The translations under genes and the position numbers were made by a program. This document shows positions 28,635-39,394 of a stretch of 64,000 nt of DNA, in pieces. The stretch lies in assembly GCF_014191605.1 (NCBI RefSeq), contig NZ_JACHWU010000001.1:372001-436000 (forward strand), in the 5' to 3' direction. This stretch comes from Prauserella isguenensis. GTDB lineage: Bacteria > Actinomycetota > Actinomycetes > Mycobacteriales > Pseudonocardiaceae. Below the pieces are notes generated by a model, which saw only the letters and a list, made by a program, of their open reading frames with translations, was not told where the DNA came from and searched no databases. Each line of letters opens with the position of its first letter. The stretch's first letter is position 1.

Positions 28635-28686
28635 GCTGTGGTTGTCTGACCCAGGAAGGCGCAATGACGCGCTCGGGAGGCTCGAC

Positions 28687-30138
28687 ATGCAACGCGACGA
28701 CTTCTCGCTCCCCGCGAACCCACCGGGCGGCGCTCCACGACTGCGCGCGTCCTGGCGCCGCAGCGAACGCTACGGCCTGGCCGCCGACGACATCCGGCCC
28801 GTGTTCACCGGCTCGGTCGACACCGAATCGCTGCTGTACGAATGCGGGCGCGAGGTACTGCGCGGCCTGCAGAAGACGCTGGCGAACGAGCCGGTCAGCA
28901 TGATGATCACCGACCCGGACGGGCTGGTGCTGAGCCGACTGTCGGAGGACGCGACGATCAACCGCTCGCTGGATCGCGTGCACCTGGCCCCGGGGTTCTA
29001 CTTCGCCGAACGCAATGCCGGGACGAACGGCCTCGGTCTCGCGCTGGCCGACCGCGCGCCGTCGCTGGTCCGTGCCGATGAGCACTACTGCACCGGTCTG
29101 CGCGGTTACACGTGCGCGGCCGCACCCGTGGTCGATCCGTCGGGTGACGTCGCAGGCAGCGTCAACCTCACGACCTGGTCGGATTCGGCCCCCGAACTGT
29201 TGATGGCGCTGGCCCAGTCGGCGGCGGCCAACACGTCGGCGCTGATGCTGGCCAGGGGTGCGGGCAGGTTCGCTCCGCCCACGCCGCACGGCGAGGTGTT
29301 CCGTGTCTACGCCGACCGCTCACGCGCGCCGGAGGAGGCGCTGCCGACCACCGGTTGGCGCGGCGCGTTCGCCGAGGCACGCACCGCGTTCCGGCGCGGA
29401 CTGGCCGTCGCCGTGGTCGGCGAGCCGGGTACGGGCAAGACGGCCCTCGCCTCGCTGGCCCGCCGCGAACTGCGGCGGGAGCGTGTCCTCAGCGCGAGGC
29501 CGCCCGCACCCGAGGACGTCGAGTCGTGGTTCGAGCTGTGGGTCCCCGAACTCGGCAAGGACAGCACCTGCGTGATCGTCTCCGGGGTGGACAGTATGCC
29601 CGCATGGGCGACGACGGAGCTGGCGCACCTGTTCACCAGGGTGCGAGCCACCCGCGACATGCAGCCCTACGTGGTCACGGCCTCGTCGGCCGACACGCTG
29701 CCGGACGAGCTCCGCGAGCTGATCGACGTCGTCGTCGACGTACCGGCCCTGCGGTTCCGTCCGGACGACATCATGCCGCTGGCCAAACACTTCGCCCACC
29801 AGGCTCGGGGCCGGGACATCGACTTCACCCCGGCGGCCGCCCGTGCACTGACGGCGTTCGACTGGCCGGGCAACGTCCGTGGCCTCCGTCGGGTCGTCCG
29901 AGAGGCGGCCGCCAGGACGGATCGGATCGACCTCCACCACCTCGCACCCGAGGTCTTCACCGGCCCCGGCCGGCCGCTGACCAGGCTGCAGTCGGTGGAA
30001 CGGGACGAGATCGTCCGCTGCCTGACCGAACCGGGCACGACCGTGAGCGAAGCGGCGGAGCAGTTGGGGCTCGGCAGGGCGACGATCTACCGCAAGATCC
30101 GCCAGTACCGCATCACGGTCCCCGACCGCACCCCCTGA
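28687..30138 (+). CDS. AcoR/MimR-like GAF-AAA-Fis transcriptional activator
   Basis: A 483-residue enhancer-binding-type regulator. It has a GAF-like sensory part (residues 1 to about 200, GFYFAERNAGTNGLGLAL, GLRGYTCAAAPV), an AAA-like ATPase region with Walker A GEPGTGKTAL (about 245) and a C-terminal Fis-type HTH (VSEAAEQLGLGRATIYRKIRQY). The GAFTGA loop that contacts sigma-54 is not visible, so it is likely a sigma-54-independent relative, as expected in actinomycetes. ATG 28687 follows GGGAGG. It probably controls the adjacent cassette through the GAGACAC sites. Confidence 0.88.
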   Translation: MQRDDFSLPANPPGGAPRLRASWRRSERYGLAADDIRPVFTGSVDTESLLYECGREVLRGLQKTLANEPVSMMITDPDGLVLSRLSEDATINRSLDRVHLAPGFYFAERNAGTNGLGLALADRAPSLVRADEHYCTGLRGYTCAAAPVVDPSGDVAGSVNLTTWSDSAPELLMALAQSAAANTSALMLARGAGRFAPPTPHGEVFRVYADRSRAPEEALPTTGWRGAFAEARTAFRRGLAVAVVGEPGTGKTALASLARRELRRERVLSARPPAPEDVESWFELWVPELGKDSTCVIVSGVDSMPAWATTELAHLFTRVRATRDMQPYVVTASSADTLPDELRELIDVVVDVPALRFRPDDIMPLAKHFAHQARGRDIDFTPAAARALTAFDWPGNVRGLRRVVREAAARTDRIDLHHLAPEVFTGPGRPLTRLQSVERDEIVRCLTEPGTTVSEAAEQLGLGRATIYRKIRQYRITVPDRTP

Positions 30139-30662: not shown

Positions 30663-32186
30663 TCAGAAGAAACCCTGCGCATCGGGCGAGTACGACACCA
30701 GCAGGTTCTTCGTCTGCTGGTAGTGGTCGAGCATCATCCGGTGGTTCTCCCGGCCGATACCAGACTGCTTGTACCCGCCGAACGCCGCGTGCGCGGGGTA
30801 GGCGTGGTAGCAGTTCGTCCACACTCGACCGGCCTCGATGTCGCGGCCCGCACGGAACGCGGTGTTGCCGTCCCGCGACCACACGCCGGCACCGAGGCCG
30901 TAGAGCGTGTCGTTGGCGGTCTTGATGGCGTCGTCGTAGTCGTCGAACGTCGCCACCGACACGACCGGCCCGAAGATCTCCTCCTGGAAGACACGCATCT
31001 TGTTGTCGCCCGCGAACACGGTCGGCTTGACGTAGTAACCGCCGGAAAGCTCGCCGCCCAGGTCGGCCTTCTCGCCACCGGTGAGGACCTTCGCGCCCTC
31101 CTGCTTGCCGATGTCGATGTAGGACAGGATCTTCTCGAACTGGTCGTTCGAGGCCTGCGCACCGATCATGGTGTCGGTGTCGAGCGGGTTGCCCTGCTGG
31201 ATCTTCTCGACGCGCGCGACGCCGTCGCTGATGAACCTGTCGTAGATCGACGCCTGCACCAGGGCACGCGACGGGCACGTGCACACCTCGCCCTGGTTGA
31301 GGGCGAACATCGCGAAGCCCTCCTGCGCCTTGTTGTAGAAGGCGTCGTCGGCGGCGGCGACGTCGGAGAAGAAGATGTTCGGGCTCTTGCCGCCCAGCTC
31401 GAGCGTCACGGGAATGATGTTCTCGCTGGCGTACTGCATGATCAGCCTGCCGGTGGTGGTCTCACCGGTGAAGGCGACCTTCCGGATGCCCGGGTGCTGA
31501 GCCAGCGGCTTGCCCGCCTCGGCGCCGAAGCCGTTGACGATGTTCAGCACACCCGCGGGCAGCAGGTCGGCGATCAGCGACAGCAGCACGTGGATCGAGG
31601 CCGGGGTCTGCTCGGCGGGCTTGAGCACCACGCAGTTGCCCGCGGCCAGCGCGGGAGCGACCTTCCACGTCGCCATGAGAATCGGGAAGTTCCACGGGAT
31701 GATCTGGCCGACCACACCGAGCGGCTCGTGGAAGTGGTACGCCACGGTGTCGGCGTCGATCTGCGAGATCGAGCCCTCCTGCGCACGGATCGAACCGGCG
31801 AAGTAGCGGAAGTGGTCGATGGCCAGCGGAATGTCGGCGCCCAGCGTCTCGCGGACGGGCTTGCCGTTCTCCCAGCTCTCGGCCACGGCGATGGCCTCGA
31901 GATTGGCCTCCATGCGGTCCGCGATCCGGTTGAGCAGTACGGCACGCTCGGCGGGCGACGTGCGGCCCCACGCGTCGGCGGCACCGGTGGCCGCGGCCAC
32001 GGCACGGTCGATGTCCTCGGACGTGCCACGCGCGATCTCGGTGAACACCTTGCCGGTGACCGGCGTCGGATTCTCGAAGTACTGACCCTTGGCCGGAGGC
32101 ACGTACTCACCGCCGATGAAGTGGTCGTACCGCGGTTCGAACGCGACGACGCTGCCTGGCTGCCCCGGTGCGGCGTAAGTAGTCAT
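30663..32186 (-). CDS. NAD-dependent aldehyde dehydrogenase (acetaldehyde/propanal type)
   Basis: A 507-residue ALDH of the ExaC/AldA type. The catalytic Glu ([11 protein letters not shown]) and Cys ([15 protein letters not shown]) and the cofactor motif [13 protein letters not shown] are all in place. It oxidises short aldehydes to acids. ATG 32186 is used; the upstream frame runs into the regulatory region. The promoter at 32229-32262 carries the TGCAAC pair that also precedes the diol dehydratase, so this enzyme probably removes the aldehyde made by the dehydratase. Confidence 0.93.
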
Positions 32187-32228: not shown

Positions 32229-32262
32229 AACGTAGGAACCGCGACGTTGCAGGCGCGTTGCA
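32229..32262 (-). promoter_or_regulatory. TGCAAC-pair promoter of the aldehyde dehydrogenase operon
   Basis: Reading the minus strand: TGCAAC (32262-32257), 5 bases, TGCAAC (32251-32246), 11 bases, TACGTT as -10 (32234-32229), then 42 bases to the ATG. The same layout precedes the diol dehydratase (34045-34078). The box next to the -10 occupies the -35 region, so the activator probably replaces a -35 contact. Confidence 0.7.
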
Positions 32263-32401
32263 ACACCGCGTCGCGATGTCGCGGCGCGCCGTGACGGGTC
32301 ACGAGGGGTCACCTCGTGCCACTTCCTTGCTCTCGGGAGCGCGACCGGGGCATGCTCGAACGAACAGCACCGCCCGTCACCGTCGCCGCCGCGGAGTGTC
32401 C

Positions 32402-33928
32402 ATGAGATCCCAACCCGCCCCGAACGCCCTGCACAGCGTGTCGGACCCGTTCGCTCAGCAGCGTGTGCTGAAGCAGATCCGCGACGCCGCGCTCAGTGAC
32501 GAGGAGCTCGGCGGGAAGAACGGTGGGGCGGCACCGCGGACCGTCATCTCCGAGTCCTGGCGCCGGTCGCTGGCCACCGGCGTCGATCCGGACGACTACC
32601 TCCCCCCGGTGGTGTACGACGACGACGAACTCGACGACGTACGCACCTCCCACCCGTTGCACGCCGTACTGCCACCGCTGCGGGAACTGCTGGTGAGCAT
32701 CGCCGACGAGGCGCAGCACATCACGATCCTCACCGACGCCGACGGCACGATCCTATGGCGGGAGGGCCCGTCCGGGCTGTGCCGGCTGGCGGACCCGGTC
32801 GGCCTGCACGAGGGCACGCGGTGGGCGGAATCGGCGATCGGCACGAACGCGATGGGCACCGCGCTGGCGACGGACGCACCGGTGCAGATCTATTCGGCCG
32901 AGCACCTCGTGCGCACCTACCACTCGTGGACATGTGCCGCCGCCCCGATACACGACCCCGACACCGGCCGGGTACTCGGCGCCATCGACATCAGCGGCAG
33001 GCTCGACACGCTGCATCCGGCGATGGTGTCGCTGGTCAACGCCACCGCGCAGGTCGCGGAGAACCACCTACGGCTGCGGATGCAGGACTCCGACGAACGC
33101 CTGCGCAGGAGGAACCTGCCTCGCCTGGAACGGCTCGGCGGAGAACCGGGAGCACTGCTCACCACGTCCGGCAGGGTGATCGCCGCGAGCCCGCTCGGCA
33201 CGTTCCCCCACCGGGTCGCCGTCGAACCCGGCACGGACCGGGTCGACCTCGACGGTCGCGAAGCACTGCTCGAACCGCTGTCCGGTGGGTATCTCCTCCG
33301 CATGCCGCGGAAGGAAGGCAAGACGATCCCCGCACGCCCCGCCAGACCGACGCTGCAGCTGTCGTTCCTCGGCACCGCCCCCGAGGCGCAGCTGGACGGG
33401 CGAAGCGTGCCGTTGACACTGCGCAGGGCGGAGATCCTCGCCCTGCTGGCACTGCATCCCGACGGGCTGACCGCGGACCAGCTGGCACTGCACCTCTACG
33501 GCGACGCCGGCAACCCCACGACGGTGCGCGCCGAGGTGCACCGCCTGCGCAGCGAACTCGGGGATGCGCTCCTCGCGAAGCCGTACCGCTTGGCCGCCGA
33601 CGTGGACGCCGACTTCCTGCGCGTGCGCGACGCCCTCGCGACCGGCGACCTCACGACCGCGGCCTCGATCGCCACCGCACCGCTGCTGGCCCGCTCGGAG
33701 TCGCCGACGATTCGCGCGGAGCGGGAGCAGCGGACCGTCGCCCTGCGCACCGCCGTGCTCGACAGCGGCGATCCCGAGGCCCTCTGGGCGCTGTCCGAGG
33801 GCGAACCGGGCCGCGACGACATCGAGGTGTTCGAGCACCTGACGCGGGTCCTTCGGGCGGGTGACCCGCGTCGCCCGGTCGCGGATGCACGACTGGCCTG
33901 GCTGCTCGACAGCGACGACGATGGCTGA
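32402..33928 (+). CDS. GAF-domain transcriptional regulator with C-terminal wHTH
   Basis: A 508-residue regulator. An N-terminal GAF domain (about 75-210; [54 protein letters not shown]) resembles the sensing part of AcoR proteins, but there is no AAA domain. A linker leads to a winged-helix-like domain ([17 protein letters not shown], then [21 protein letters not shown]) near residues 320-385. It lies divergently from the aldehyde dehydrogenase and is the likely reader of the TGCAAC sites (inference from position). A hairpin with 9-bp arms follows the stop. Confidence 0.85.
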
Positions 33929-33950
33929 CGAGACCTGTGGCGGCCCGTGA

Positions 33951-33971
33951 GGACGCCGTGGGACGGCGTCC
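33951..33971 (+). terminator. 9-bp perfect hairpin after the GAF regulator
   Basis: GGACGCCGT (33951-33959) pairs with ACGGCGTCC (33963-33971) over a 3-base loop, 22 bases after the stop at 33928. No T-run follows, so termination strength is uncertain. Confidence 0.5.
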
Positions 33972-34044
33972 GCGGTCGAAGGCCGGGTGGCCGGGACCGC
34001 ACCGCCGTTCCACAACCGTAGATCGCGCACGAGGCCCGGGCGCC

Positions 34045-34078
34045 TGCAACGTCGGTGCAACGCCCCTGCGCATAGGTT
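34045..34078 (+). promoter_or_regulatory. TGCAAC-pair promoter of the diol dehydratase operon
   Basis: TGCAAC (34045-34050), 5 bases, TGCAAC (34056-34061), 11 bases, TAGGTT as -10 (34073-34078), and the ATG of the small subunit 37 bases later. The spacing is identical to that before the aldehyde dehydrogenase, and a 15-base sequence (GCGCCTGCAACGTCG, 34040-34054) is shared with it in reverse complement. Confidence 0.7.
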
Positions 34079-34115: not shown

Positions 34116-34550
34116 ATGGCGGTGACACTTCCCGACCAGGTGGAACTCGATCCGGGCAGCGACTACCCGCTCGCGGCACACCGACCGGAGCTGCTCCGCA
34201 CTCCGACGGGCAAACCGATCGACGAGCTGACCATGCAGGCGGTGCTCTCCGGCGACGTCGCCGCCGAGGACCTGCGCATCTCGCCCGACACGCTGCGGTT
34301 GCAGGCGCAGGTCGCCGAACGGGTGGGCCGCACGCAGCTGGCACGCAACTTCCGCCGCGCCGCCGAGCTGACCGCGCTACCGGACGATCTCGTGCTGTCC
34401 ATCTACAACTCGCTGCGGCCGAACGCCTCGACGAAACAGCAGCTCACCGACATCGCCGACCGGCTCGAAGGCGAGTACTCCGCGACGTTGTGCGCCGAAC
34501 TGGTGCGCGAAGCCGCCGACGTCTACGAGCGCCGGGACATCCTGGCCTGA
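34116..34550 (+). CDS. pduE: B12-dependent diol/glycerol dehydratase small subunit
   Basis: A 144-residue gamma subunit of adenosylcobalamin-dependent diol dehydratase. The family core is clear (LRPNASTKQQLTDIADRLEG, EYSATLCAELVREAADVYERR). ATG 34116 follows AGGCAGG. It is first in this operon, whereas in most bacteria the small subunit comes last after large and medium. The name follows the family; the substrate (1,2-propanediol, glycerol or ethylene glycol) is not fixed by sequence. Confidence 0.88.
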   Translation: MAVTLPDQVELDPGSDYPLAAHRPELLRTPTGKPIDELTMQAVLSGDVAAEDLRISPDTLRLQAQVAERVGRTQLARNFRRAAELTALPDDLVLSIYNSLRPNASTKQQLTDIADRLEGEYSATLCAELVREAADVYERRDILA

Positions 34551-34818
34551 CGCCACCGCACACCGGTGCCGTCCCTTGGAGCGGTTCACGCACGGTGCTT
34601 CCGACCCAGGCCTTCCGGCACAGCTCCTGCGGCACCGGACCTTTCCGACACACGACACTTCCCGGGCACGACGTTCCTCGAACATCGGGGCACGTTCGGG
34701 AGACGGCACTTTCCGAACCGACACCGCCCGATCCGACACCGCCCGGCGCGACTCGGCCTCCGCCCGCACCGGCCTTCCGATCAACTCCATCCTCCGCACG
34801 CGACAGGGAGATCCGACG
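34551..34818. other. leader between dehydratase small and large subunit genes
   Basis: A 268-base gap inside the operon. It contains a 13-base direct repeat CCGACACCGCCCG (34718-34730 and 34733-34745). I looked for a cobalamin riboswitch B12 box and see none. The frame through it is open but the encoded sequence (RHRTFPTHDTSRARRSS...) does not look like a protein. Confidence 0.4.
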
Positions 34819-36525
34819 ATGACTGCGGAACCACTTCCGGTATCGACTCCGGCATCCAAACGCACCGAGGCGCTCGAGGAACGGCCGGTCAACCTCGACG
34901 GGTTCGTCGAGGAGTGGCCCGAGGTCGGCATGGTGGCGATGGACAGCCCGTACGACCCGACACCGAGCGTGCGGGTGGCCGACGGCGTCATCGTGGAGAT
35001 GGACGGCAAGCCGCGCGCCGAGTTCGACTTCCTCGACCAGTTCATCGCCGACCACGCGATCGACGTGTCGGTGACCGAACACGCCATGGCACTCGAACCG
35101 GTCGAGGTGGCGCGCATGCTCGTCGACCCGACGGTGACACGCTCGGAGGTCGTCGAGGTCGCTGGCGGCCTGACCCCCGCCGCCCTGCTCGAGGTTGTCA
35201 AGACGATGAACGTCGTCGAGATGATGCAGGCGCTGCAGAAGATGCGCGCCCGGCGCACACCTGCCAACCAGGCGCACTCCACGAGCGCACGCGACAACCC
35301 GGTGCAGGTCGCTGCTGAGGCGGCCGAGGCGTCGCTGCGCGGGTTCCGGGAGCTGGAGACGACTCTGGGCGTGGTGCGCTACGCGCCGCTCGTGGCGATC
35401 GCACTGCAGGTCGGGGCCCTCGCGGGTACTCCGGGCGCGCTGACCCAGTGCGCGCTCGAGGAGGCCACCGAGCTGGAACTCGGCATGCGCGGCATCACCG
35501 CCTACGCCGAGACGATCTCCGTCTACGGCACGGAGCCGGTGTTCTGCGACGGCGACGACACTCCGTGGTCGAAGGCCTTCCTGGCCTCGGCCTACGCCTC
35601 GCGCGGCATCAAGATGCGATTCACCTCCGGCACCGGTTCCGAGGTGCAGATGGGTAACGCCGAGGGCCGCTCGATGCTGTACCTGGAGATCCGCTGCATC
35701 CTCGTCGCGAAGGGGGCCGGCGTGCAGGGGCTGCAGAACGGGTCGATCAGCTGCATCGGCGTTCCGGGCGCCGTTCCCGCGGGCATCCGCGCGGTGCTCG
35801 CGGAGAACCTGCTCGCCAGCACCGCCGACCTCGAATGCGCGTCCGGCAACGACCAGTCGTTCTCGCACTCCGACATGCGCCGCACCGCGCGCCTGCTGCC
35901 GCAGCTGCTGTCGGGCACCGACTTCGTGTGCTCCGGGTACTCGGCCGTGCCCAACTACGACAACATGTTCGCCGGGTCCAACCTGGACTCGACGGACTAC
36001 GACGACTGGAACACCATTCAGCGGGACCTGCAGGTCGACGGCGCGCTGCGGCACGTTCCCGAGGAAGAGCTGCTGGCGGCGCGCAGCAGGGCGGCCCGCG
36101 CGTTGCAGGCGGTGTTCGCCCAGCTCGGGCTGCCGACGATCACCGACAAGGAGGTCGAGGCGGCCACCTACGCGCACGGCAGTCAGGACCTGCCGATGCG
36201 GGACGTGCTGGAGGACCTCAAGGCCGCGCAGTCGGTCATGGACCGCGGGATCACCGGACTCGACGTGATCAAGGCGCTCGAGGCGGCCGGGTACAGCGAC
36301 ATGGCGCACACGCTGCTGTCGGTGCTGCGGCACCGAGTGTCGGGCGACCTGCTGCACACGTCGGCGATCCTCACGCCCGAGCTGGAGACCCTGTCCGCAG
36401 TCAACGACGCCAACGACTACGCGGGTCCCGGCAGCGGCTACCGCCCCGCGGGCGAACGCTGGCGCGAGATGAAACGCCTTCGCCACGTCGTCAGCGCCAG
36501 TAATCCCGAAGAGGAAATCGGCTGA
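34819..36525 (+). CDS. pduC: B12-dependent diol/glycerol dehydratase large subunit
   Basis: The catalytic alpha subunit, which converts 1,2-diols to aldehydes by a radical mechanism in a TIM barrel with adenosylcobalamin. Family signatures are strong ([23 protein letters not shown] with the substrate-binding Gln and His, [36 protein letters not shown]-like [30 protein letters not shown]). Length 568, normal for PduC. ATG 34819 lies 8 bases after GGGAG. Medium subunit and reactivase follow directly. Confidence 0.94.
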
Positions 36526-36541
36526 AAGGACACCTCCTGCC

Positions 36542-37132
36542 ATGACCAGTATGGAAGCGCGACCCGAACGGGTGCTCGACGCGGTCGAACGGGGCGAGGC
36601 CGCGGTGGGGATCCGTCCGGACGAGGTGGTCATCGGTATCTCGCCCGCGTTCGGGGACTCCTTCACCAAGACGATCGTGGAGATCCCGCACGCCGAGGTG
36701 CTGCGGGAGCTTCTCGCGGGCGTCGAGGAACAGGGCGTGCACGCGCGGGTGATCCGCTACCGCAGCGGTTCGGATCTCGCGGTGATCGCCCACGCGGCGG
36801 CGCGGTTGTCCGGCTCGGGCATCGGTGTCGGCCTACTGTCCCGCGGTACGACGATGATCCACCAGAAGGACCTCGTCCGGCTGTCCAATCTGGAGCTTTT
36901 TCCGCAGGCGCCGTTGCTCGACCCGGAAACGTTCCGCAAGGTCGGCCGCAATGCCGCGCGCTACGCCAAGGGTGAGTCGCCCGAGCCCGTCCCCGCACGC
37001 AACGACTACATGGCCCGGCCGCGCTGGCAGGCCAAGGCGGCGTTACTGCACATCAAGGAGACGGAGTTCGTGACGGCGGGCGCCGCACCGGTCGAGCTCG
37101 ACGTCCGGATCCGGCTGGCCGACGCCGGTTGA
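36542..37132 (+). CDS. pduD: B12-dependent diol/glycerol dehydratase medium subunit
   Basis: The 196-residue beta subunit that helps bind the corrin ring ([65 protein letters not shown]). It is shorter than enterobacterial PduD (about 224) because it lacks the N-terminal extension that targets PduD to microcompartments. That fits the absence of shell genes here. ATG 36542, 16 bases after the large subunit. Confidence 0.9.
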
Positions 37133-37136
37133 CGCC

Positions 37137-38963
37137 GTGACTCTGCTGGTCGGCGTCGACATCGGCAACTCCACCACCGAGGCGTGCCTGGCCGAGCTCG
37201 GCCCCGACGGTCCTCGCTACCTGGGCGGGGCGCTCGCGCCGACGTCCGGGGTGAAGGGCACGGCGGAGAACGTGCCGGGCGTGGTCAAGGTGGTGCAGGA
37301 GGCGCTGTCCGCAGTGGGGCGCGCCCCACACGAGCTGGCGACGGTGTTGGTCAACGAGGCCACACCGGTCATCAGCGGGTTGGCGATGGAGACGATCACC
37401 GAGACCGTCATCACCGAGTCGACGATGATCGGGCACAACCCGGACACGCCCGCCGGCGCGGGGCTCGGCACGGGCACCACGGTGGCGTTCGGCGAGCTCG
37501 ACGAGTGCGGGCCGGGCGAGCGGGTGATCTGCGTGGTCGGTGCGGGCGTGGACTTCGAGGACGCCGCCGCCGGCATCGCTGCCGCGCGTGATCGCGGCGT
37601 CGAGGTGACCGGTGCAGTGGTGCACGCCGACGACGCGAACCTCGTCGTCAACCGGCTGCCGCAGCCGATCCCGGTGGTCGACGAGGTGACGCTGATCGAG
37701 AAGGTGCCGCTGGGCATGCCCGCGGCCGTCGAAGTGGCCGAACCGGGCAGGACCGTGCGCACGCTGTCCAACTCGTACGGCATCGCGACGCTGTTCGACC
37801 TCGATCCCGACCAGACCCGTCTCGTCGCTCCGGTGGCCAGGGCGCTGGTGGGCAACCGGTCTGCCGTCGTGGTGCGCACGCCGTCCGGGGACATCGCCGA
37901 CCGCCGCATCCCCGCGGGCACGCTGACGCTCATCGGCGAGCACGCCCGGCTGTCGGTGGGTATCGACGCGGGTGCCGAGGAGATCATGGCCACCCTGCGT
38001 CGGGTGACCCCGCTGGCCGACGCGACCGGCGAACCGGGCACTCACGTGGGCGGGATGCTGGCCACGGTGCGCGACGCCATGGCGGAAACACTGTCGGACA
38101 CGGCCGATGAGCCGGACGTGCGTATCCAGGACGTGCTGGCGGTCGACACGTTCGTCCCGCAGCACGTCACCGGCGCGCTCGCGGGTGAGTTCGCGCTCGA
38201 GAACGCGGTGGCACTCGCCGCGATGGTGCGCACGAGCAGAGCTCCGATGGAGGCGCTCGCCGAACAGCTGCGGTCGGCGCTCGGCGTGGACGTCGTCGTG
38301 GGCGGGGTCGAGGCGGACATGGCCGTGCTGGGTGCGCTGACCACTCCGGGCACCGAGCGGCCGTTGGCGGTGCTCGATCTCGGCGGGGGCTCGACCGACG
38401 CCGCGCTGGCCACCGGCGACGGCGAGGTTCGTTCGGTCCACCTGGCGGGCGCGGGCGACCTGGTGACGAAGCTGATCGACTCCGAGCTCGGCCTCGACAA
38501 TCGCGAGGTCGCCGAGGACATCAAGAAGAACCCGCTCGCGAAGGCGGAGAGCTTCTTCCACGTGCGCATGGAGGACGGGACGGCGCGCTTTTTCGACGAA
38601 CCGCTGCCCGCGGAGGCGTTCGCGCGCGTGGTCGTGCTCGGCGAGGAGGGCATGCGGCCCGTCCCGACGCGGCACTCGCTGGAGAAGGTCCGTCAGGTGC
38701 GCAGGTCGGCCAAACACAAGGTGTTCGTCGTGAACGCCCTGCGTGCCCTGGAACGGGTCGCGCCGGGCGGTAACCTGCGCGAGATCGGTTTCGTCGTGGT
38801 GCTCGGCGGGTCGGCGTTGGACTTCGAGATCCCGGACATGATCGCCGAGGCTGTCGCGGGTGCCGGGATCGTGTGCGGCACGGGCAACGTGCGTGGCCGC
38901 GAGGGCCCGCGCAACGCCGTCGCGACCGGCCTGGTGGACGCCCACGCGGGGCGCGCCCTATGA
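37137..38963 (+). CDS. ddrA: diol dehydratase reactivase large subunit
   Basis: An actin-like ATPase that exchanges damaged cobalamin from the dehydratase. The nucleotide-binding motifs are VGVDIGNSTTEACLAEL at the start and AVLDLGGGSTDAALAT at about 420. The 608-residue length is standard for DdrA/PduG. GTG 37137 is 4 bases after the medium subunit, and the stop overlaps the next ATG. Confidence 0.92.
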   Translation: MTLLVGVDIGNSTTEACLAELGPDGPRYLGGALAPTSGVKGTAENVPGVVKVVQEALSAVGRAPHELATVLVNEATPVISGLAMETITETVITESTMIGHNPDTPAGAGLGTGTTVAFGELDECGPGERVICVVGAGVDFEDAAAGIAAARDRGVEVTGAVVHADDANLVVNRLPQPIPVVDEVTLIEKVPLGMPAAVEVAEPGRTVRTLSNSYGIATLFDLDPDQTRLVAPVARALVGNRSAVVVRTPSGDIADRRIPAGTLTLIGEHARLSVGIDAGAEEIMATLRRVTPLADATGEPGTHVGGMLATVRDAMAETLSDTADEPDVRIQDVLAVDTFVPQHVTGALAGEFALENAVALAAMVRTSRAPMEALAEQLRSALGVDVVVGGVEADMAVLGALTTPGTERPLAVLDLGGGSTDAALATGDGEVRSVHLAGAGDLVTKLIDSELGLDNREVAEDIKKNPLAKAESFFHVRMEDGTARFFDEPLPAEAFARVVVLGEEGMRPVPTRHSLEKVRQVRRSAKHKVFVVNALRALERVAPGGNLREIGFVVVLGGSALDFEIPDMIAEAVAGAGIVCGTGNVRGREGPRNAVATGLVDAHAGRAL

Positions 38964-39394
38964 GCGGAATCGTCGACCGCCGTGGGCAGCGGGACCGCCA
39001 CTCACCGCCGACCGTCGTCGCCCGGTGCGTCGGTGACCACGGCGTCCGTGAGCTGCTGGCGGGGCTCGAGGAAGAGGGCGTCCCCGTGCGACTCGCCGAC
39101 CCGGCCGATGCGAGTGCCGACGCGGGCGGCGCGACGTGTGGCGACGGGGCGAGTGCCACGGCCGTCGAACTGGCGCACGCCGCAGCCCGCGCATCCACGC
39201 TGGACGTCGGCGTCGGCATCGACTCCGAAGGCCGGGTCTGCGTACACCACGCGAAACGCCCCGCCGACCGGCCGGTGGTCACCACGGACGCCGCCCGTGC
39301 CCGATGGTGCGGGCACAACGCCGCCCGACTCGTCATCGGACTGCCGTTGAAGGAACCACCCGAACAGATGGAGGAAACGTGGCCGCATCACTGA
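38960..39394 (+). CDS. ddrB: diol dehydratase reactivase small subunit
   Basis: A 144-residue small reactivase subunit, structurally like the dehydratase beta subunit (VVARCVGDHGVRELLAGLEEEGVP; ARASTLDVGVGIDSEGRVCVHH). ATG 38960 lies in the stop of ddrA and the stop overlaps the next start. Residues 1-15 are charged and may be flexible. Confidence 0.85.
   Translation: MSGIVDRRGQRDRHSPPTVVARCVGDHGVRELLAGLEEEGVPVRLADPADASADAGGATCGDGASATAVELAHAAARASTLDVGVGIDSEGRVCVHHAKRPADRPVVTTDAARARWCGHNAARLVIGLPLKEPPEQMEETWPHH

Follow-up and report, generated by a model that had tools for sequence, protein, structure and literature searches.

Two promoters on either side of a regulator gene in Prauserella isguenensis share an operator built of direct repeats, one before an aldehyde dehydrogenase (ALDH) gene and the other before a diol dehydratase operon. 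We consider it likely that a GAF-SARP activator reads these repeats, recruits RNA polymerase and switches the dehydratase, the ExaC-type ALDH and, more weakly, an acyl-CoA ligase gene. The evidence is computed and consists of the site itself, its conservation and fixed geometry, its association with the regulator, a correlation between operator bases and the recognition helix, a predicted fold and the nature of the target genes. The features are listed below by their positions in the window, which is the whole stretch of 64,000 nucleotides that was analysed.

28642-30138, plus strand: second GAF regulator, with an AAA-lid and a Fis-type helix-turn-helix, located beyond the ALDH gene
30663-32186, minus strand: ALDH of the acetaldehyde dehydrogenase ExaC family (NF050026, 955.7 bits; cut-off, 900)
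32229-32262, minus strand: ALDH operator-promoter (TGCAAC at 32257-32262, N5, TGCAAC at 32246-32251, N11, TACGTT at 32229-32234)
32402-33928, plus strand: regulator of 508 amino acids with a GAF domain and an OmpR/SARP-type winged helix (wHTH), the proposed reader (Pfam, AlphaFold2 model, Foldseek and operator association)
34045-34078, plus strand: diol dehydratase operator-promoter (TGCAAC at 34045-34050, N5, TGCAAC at 34056-34061, N11, TAGGTT at 34073-34078)
34116-34550, plus strand: diol/glycerol dehydratase small subunit, first gene of the operon (PF02287, 9.1e-57)
34819-36525, plus strand: diol/glycerol dehydratase large subunit, B12 dependent (PF02286, 4.1e-295; NF011979 above cut-off)
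36542-37132, plus strand: diol/glycerol dehydratase medium subunit (PF02288; NF011616 above cut-off)
37137-38963, plus strand: diol dehydratase reactivase alpha subunit, PduG (TIGR04491 above cut-off)
38960-39394, plus strand: small protein related to the dehydratase medium subunit (PF02288, 1.9e-22)

The dehydratase operon (34116-39394) runs in the order small, large, medium, reactivase, unlike enteric pdu operons, in which the order is large-medium-small. Judging from its position, the last gene (38960-39394) probably encodes the reactivase small subunit. The GAF-Fis regulator was kept beside the ALDH gene in five of the six same-genus loci examined (L070 to L074, not L075). Among the matches listed, the closest named records for the GAF-wHTH regulator came from Prauserella aidingensis (96%), P. 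halophila (90%) and P. alba (90%). The P. isguenensis genome also encodes a shorter paralogue of about 400 amino acids (41% identity) outside the window, at G000:C1:658271-659386 (L209:7272-8405), with no ALDH match within the fetched 15 kb; many shorter matches of that kind were present in relatives.

Both promoters carry the same two boxes, the same N5 and N11 spacers and a -10-like hexamer at the same distance, on opposite strands, as a reading of the sequence alone had described. The span 32229-34078 comprises the two promoters and the regulator gene between them, and 42 bases separate the -10-like hexamer of the ALDH promoter from the start codon at 32186. A search of all 15 contigs of the genome (4,949,102 bp) revealed two exact copies of TGCAACN5TGCAAC, both at these promoters, and no copy of the control pattern, the same motif read backwards. 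The chance expectation, calculated from first-order (dinucleotide) composition of the window scaled up to the genome, was 0.27 for the box pair and 0.0004 when TANNNT was added. The genome scan that the same reading had proposed found the exact sites confined to the two operons, rather than common and unassociated with these pathways. A 15-base stretch had also been described as shared by the promoters. It exists (GCGCCTGCAACGTCG, at 32242-32256 on the minus strand and 34040-34054 on the plus strand), but it pairs the proximal box of the ALDH promoter with the distal box of the dehydratase promoter; being out of register, it does not align equivalent promoter parts. When up to three mismatches were allowed, the genome yielded 9 matches versus 22 for the control, so a mismatch scan alone is uninformative for listing the regulon.

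We then compared genomes. The pattern TGCAACN5TGCAACN11TA was found at 55 sites in 42 of 120 genomes, P. isguenensis included, versus a single site for the reversed control. Both types of site, one forward and one reverse, were present in all seven genomes of the genus. Outside P. isguenensis, 51 of 53 sites fell in loci (43 were fetched) that contain a regulator match together with an ALDH gene or a pdu operon; the ALDH side accounts for 42 of these sites and the dehydratase side for 9. The other two were near neither. Two sites in genome G045 (L040 and L041) had no regulator within the fetched stretch. The gene downstream of one of them, at a distance of 369 bp, resembles iron alcohol dehydrogenases (ErcA model, below cut-off); the other site is near a contig end. 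In a sample of the phylum, 13 of 396 genomes (P. isguenensis included) carried the site followed by TANNNT, and the control was absent. This sample gave 14 sites outside P. isguenensis; a regulator match accompanied 12, 8 of which preceded an ALDH gene, and two sites had neither.

A second set of named loci was fetched by means of the regulator and comprised the best 80 of at least 559 confirmed, which favours close relatives. Within the 600 bp divergent from the regulator, the box pair at a spacing of 5 was exact in 61 of the 80 loci and present with at most one mismatch in 77. Any other spacing from 0 to 20 gave at most one exact and six near loci. Sixty shuffled hexamers matched a mean of 1.2 loci of 80; the maximum, 71, was obtained with CAACGT, which is the true repeat shifted by two bases. 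The consensus over the 77 sites was TGCAACGTNNN TGCAACGTNNN NNNNCC TANNNT. The G and T that follow the box had frequencies of 0.88 and 0.90 in the proximal repeat and 0.97 and 0.57 in the distal one, and the -10 positions were T (0.95), A (1.00) and T (0.99). Each of the three loci that fail at one mismatch carries a pair: L146 has an exact one before a more distant ALDH, L178 a two-mismatch pair before pduE, and L180 a two-mismatch pair in the usual place. Counting ExaC-type ALDH genes with more than 60% identity and a complete start, the pair was exact before 61 of 62 and near before all 62, in every case 27 to 61 bases ahead of the start codon. For pduE genes, 20 of 24 had the pair with at most one mismatch, and the remaining four had it with two or three. 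By comparison, 15 of 1,600 random 220-bp windows from the same loci, true sites included, contained a pair. The comparison across genomes thus supports the proposal that aldehyde-forming and aldehyde-removing enzymes belong to one putative regulon.

Some loci depart from the common arrangement. Umezawaea tangerina (L044 and L170) has two adjoining ALDH-regulator pairs, each with its own exact operator, and the second ALDH has just 53% identity. In Saccharomonospora sp. CUA-673 (L075 and L151), the regulator match is split over two frames, from either sequencing error or decay, and both operators are intact. Three Saccharopolyspora loci (L149, L152 and L163) combine an exact double box with the -10-like hexamer CACGMT, not TANNNT.

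The protein encoded between the two promoters had been named as the natural reader, and its presence tracks the operator. We surveyed 75 ALDH genes in 120 genomes and examined 74 upstream regions. Where a regulator match lay within 4 kb (68 ALDH genes), 57 regions had a TGCAAC pair (40 exact, 11 with one mismatch and 6 with two), 10 had a GCCAAC pair at the same N5 spacing (at most two mismatches) and one had neither. Of the six ALDH genes with no match within 4 kb, five had neither pair, and at the sixth the GCCAAC boxes were exact and the regulator match lay some 4 kb away. The sole regulator-linked ALDH gene without a site, G078:C1:849868, has a shorter-type paralogue as its neighbour. At L239:5614-8389 of G078, a second ALDH gene directly behind a codirectional shorter regulator has neither type of box, which suggests a branch with another operator.

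The two groups of boxes also differ in the recognition helix of the regulator, in which the P. isguenensis protein has A377 and R381. Residue 381 was arginine in all 32 helices shown for the TGCAAC group and histidine in all 11 shown for the GCCAAC group. Regulators of the GCCAAC group matched piecewise at 29 to 45% identity and many of the TGCAAC group at 31 to 50%; since these ranges overlap, distance alone does not explain the change of box. For residue 377 we used the 80 named loci, of which 77 have a site with no more than one mismatch; among these 77, the residue varied with the first base of the proximal box. With T at this base, the residue was alanine or serine in 62 of 62; with G or C, it was glycine in 14 of 15, the exception being L188. 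The 14 Gly377 loci are all from Pseudonocardia and retain T in the distal box, so that the proximal box alone is altered, though both protomers would carry Gly377. Three more loci, L180 from Pseudonocardia, L178 from Klenkia and L215 from another family, likewise pair glycine with a G- or C-box. L226, with alanine and C, is a further exception. All the counts at residues 377 and 381 are raw counts of helices or loci, not of independent changes. Residues 377 and 381 may, together with the box bases, constitute a readable recognition code. Locus association and this covariation support the earlier assignment, and the GAF-wHTH protein (32402-33928) is very probably the operator reader.

We examined the architecture of this protein by profile searches and structure prediction. 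A GAF domain (residues about 104 to 222; PF01590, 4.9e-11) is followed by a winged helix-turn-helix (about 317 to 403) and by seven predicted helices (404 to 506). Pfam returned GAF and Trans_reg_C alone. The Trans_reg_C match (3.5e-4) scored 21 bits, below the curated cut-off of 26.2; at E values up to 1, it recurred in 38 of 39 homologues, with a best value of 1.3e-5. There was no AAA+ domain or Fis-type helix-turn-helix and no Pfam match to a receiver domain, and the Pfam BTA domain was matched neither in the regulator nor in the 39 homologues. The AlphaFold2 model, built from a 39-sequence alignment, had a mean pLDDT of 82.9 and a pTM of 0.57, and the arrangement of one half relative to the other is uncertain. 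In a Foldseek search with this model, DhaR chains ranked first (1.1e-13), followed by AfsR initiation complexes (8k60, 1.1e-5; 8hvr, 3.5e-5), for which the target TM-scores were 0.46 to 0.49 over alignments of 223 to 230 columns. The DhaR structure 4lrx also matched by sequence (E value, 2.2e-5), and the full-length DhaR model NF008485 gave 62.6 bits against a cut-off of 551. AfsR was not matched in sequence searches with the regulator and was seen by fold alone. The regulator is thus predicted to combine a GAF domain like that of DhaR with a DNA-binding half that is AfsR/SARP-like.

Likeness to known regulators is divided between the two halves. The protein shares a GAF-containing N-terminal sensor half with E. 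coli DhaR, which regulates the dihydroxyacetone kinase operon; it differs from DhaR in that AAA+ and the Fis-type helix-turn-helix are missing and in its DNA-binding half, which is unrelated. Response regulators of the OmpR family, such as GlnR and PhoB, have a winged helix of weak sequence similarity to that of the regulator (matches 8hig, 8hih and 8hml, labelled as OmpR-family or transcriptional regulators), but they carry a receiver domain. PhoB likewise reads direct-repeat operators near -35. What recalls the SARPs (Streptomyces antibiotic regulatory proteins) is the DNA-binding domain of OmpR type, after which the model predicts seven helices where SARPs have their bacterial transcriptional activation (BTA) domain, and an operator of direct repeats with an 11-bp period (hexamer spacing of 5 in 77 of 80 loci). 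The differences are that the winged helix here is C-terminal (about 317 to 403), behind the GAF domain, whereas the SARP DNA-binding domain is N-terminal, and that the targets here belong to aldehyde metabolism, whereas those of SARPs are antibiotics. The trailing helices are also shorter, about 100 residues versus about 150 for AfsR.

The geometry of the operator resembles that of the AfsR box. If the -10 hexamer is assumed to occupy -12 to -7, the pair of 11-bp repeats extends from -40 to -19. A -35 element separated from the -10 by 17 bp would then coincide with the N5 spacer and the base just before it, the last of the distal box; the consensus there reads CGTNNN. On this placement, the -35 position is overlapped by the distal repeat, and the proximal one occupies the spacer, contrary to the sequence-only reading, in which the proximal box had taken the place of a -35 element. 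The AfsR box consists of two 11-bp repeats from -40 to -19, with the upstream repeat over -35 (PMC10936776); given the assumed -10 placement, the arrangement here is alike. The same paper gives direct repeats with an 11-bp period for SARP operators and a rule that the 3' repeat lies 8 bp from the -10 (PMC10936776). The corresponding distance here is 9 bp from an 8-bp unit, 11 from the hexamer and 6 from the full 11-bp unit. AfsR contacts the first 8 bp of each repeat, and in the AfsR-promoter structure T88 and R92 of the recognition helix touch bases at the third and fifth repeat positions (PMC10936776). By the spacing of the arginine, residues 377 and 381 would be the counterparts of T88 and R92. 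The residues would then correspond and the bases would not, as the variable bases here are the first two of the repeat.

The same position on the promoter could also serve repression, with the GAF-wHTH protein binding the sites and being released by a ligand. The ALDH site does lie within the intergenic region common to the regulator gene, and a protein seated over the -35/-10 spacer could block polymerase. However, a near match faces the regulator gene in just 4 of 80 loci, so there is no conserved autorepression site; CGTNNN at the would-be -35 suits promoters that need help; and AfsR activates from the same position (PMC10936776). We regard repression as improbable.

A different reader, the GAF-Fis regulator (28642-30138), is very unlikely. 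It adjoins the ALDH gene in the window and in the five same-genus loci mentioned above, its N-terminal part is akin to that of the GAF-wHTH protein (33% identity over about 200 residues), and among NCBIfam models DhaR matches it best, at a score below cut-off. Fis-type dimers, however, usually read inverted repeats, whereas the boxes here are direct repeats with a period of 11 bp. Moreover, site and GAF-Fis regulator do not stay together: in other genera, the loci fetched with a site (L033 to L069 and L118 to L194) contained no close homologue, and changes in the operator track the GAF-wHTH protein instead. It is equally hard to credit an alternative (ECF-type) sigma factor for which the repeats would serve as core promoter elements. 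A directional site at a limited distance from the start codon (27 to 61 bases, as given above for 62 ALDH genes) would suit this reading. ECF promoters, however, have a single -35 and a single -10, whereas the two boxes here are identical, one helical turn apart and followed by an ordinary TANNNT; in the GCCAAC group, both boxes change together, in step with the helix of the neighbouring regulator.

Genes beyond the two operons also carry the operator. In the P. isguenensis genome, the best PrpE-like gene (723.7 bits; TIGR02316 cut-off, 827.4) is preceded, at about 50 bp, by a two-mismatch match (G000:C1:1632676-1632709). The box pair, with one mismatch, is kept in six of the seven genomes of the genus (five of the six besides P. 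isguenensis) and was found in none of 17 upstream regions outside the genus. The -10 is weak (GAGAGT in P. isguenensis). Chance was considered as the source of this match and is countered by the PrpE-like gene about 50 bp on and by the conservation within the genus. Similar ligase genes elsewhere scored below the propionate models, and four of five scanned were above the broader acetate-CoA ligase model; we therefore call the product propionate/acetate-CoA-ligase-like, either acid being a candidate substrate. In other loci with an operator and a nearby regulator, the site preceded acyl-CoA-ligase genes (L121 and L136), a MadR-like response regulator gene (L142, Pseudonocardia) or a flavin monooxygenase-like gene (L236), the best models in each case being below cut-off. 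These assignments do not account for the operator targets at L227, L231, L237, L238, L296 and L297.

The genus of G078, which we take to be probably Mycobacterium, had exact sites in 53 of 148 genomes (72 sites; control, 1). We examined 20 regions, picked mainly for multiple or unusual sites and covering 25 of the 72. Ten of these sites preceded ALDH genes and three preceded acyl-CoA-ligase genes of the PrpE/AcsA kind. Two preceded an ethanolamine permease-eutB operon (eutC was identified in one), two glpK (glycerol kinase) and five a protein that by eye resembles LuxR-type regulators; three were unassigned or weakly assigned. The one LuxR-like protein scanned matched no NCBIfam model at 1e-30. 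The ligase, eut and glpK regions yielded no regulator match, and their sites are therefore apparently unlinked. Within this genus, five of six pduE regions had a site with one mismatch. Short-type eut operons are described for actinobacteria (PMC9397018). The P. isguenensis genome has an ethanolamine ammonia-lyase operon of its own (large subunit, G000:C4:336184-337509; L310), near which no operator was found; other genomes place the operator before eut genes.

Our model is as follows. Two protomers would sit side by side on the two 11-bp repeats (TGCAACGTNNN twice), which would span approximately -40 to -19, over the missing -35, and end 6 bp before the TANNNT -10. The bound protomers would recruit RNA polymerase with the main sigma factor. 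Binding by the regulator, activation rather than repression and contact with sigma are what we infer from the evidence above, the mechanism of activation by analogy with AfsR. SARPs activate by contacting region 4 of sigma as well as the polymerase. One signal would thereby turn on the aldehyde-forming diol dehydratase and the aldehyde-removing ExaC dehydrogenase and, more weakly, the unlinked propionate/acetate-CoA-ligase-like gene. This would provide a shell-free path from 1,2-propanediol or a related diol to an acyl-CoA. With 1,2-propanediol as the substrate, dehydratase, ExaC and ligase would in turn form free propionaldehyde, propionate and propionyl-CoA. Ethanolamine ammonia-lyase, whose genes the operator precedes elsewhere, would form acetaldehyde. 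A short-chain aldehyde is the common thread, and so our guess for the ligand is such an aldehyde or its parent alcohol or diol.

In enteric bacteria, acetaldehyde is held within protein shells (PMC9397018). The shell family PF00936 gave no match in the P. isguenensis genome, in a search that was positive in 2 of 14 named genomes, and aldehyde production and removal must therefore be balanced otherwise. The shared operator is a concrete candidate answer to this problem. We tentatively propose, with somewhat less than even confidence, that one GAF-SARP family governs an actinobacterial aldehyde regulon, in which synchronised transcription does the work of the microcompartment shells of enteric bacteria. 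In such a regulon, diol dehydratase and ethanolamine ammonia-lyase, as B12-dependent enzymes that release free aldehydes, would be coordinated with the enzymes of aldehyde removal, the dehydrogenase and the acyl-CoA ligase.

The proposal bears on an observation in Mycobacterium smegmatis. In a mnoS/R mutant, the ALDH MSMEG_1543 and the propanediol dehydratase MSMEG_1546 drop together, and its authors report no detectable MnoR sites for them (PMC11303327). Like the system described here, MnoS/MnoR, which serves the mno operon, belongs to actinobacterial alcohol and diol metabolism; it is a two-component system, unlike the single GAF-wHTH regulator. The joint regulation of MSMEG_1543 and MSMEG_1546 is unexplained, and our results suggest a regulator of the GAF-wHTH family as a candidate. 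Among the open-licence papers listed, we found no description of this regulator family or its operator. The proposal gives the family a target sequence, a reader and a pathway and, if true, would extend SARP-like DNA binding from antibiotic clusters into primary metabolism.
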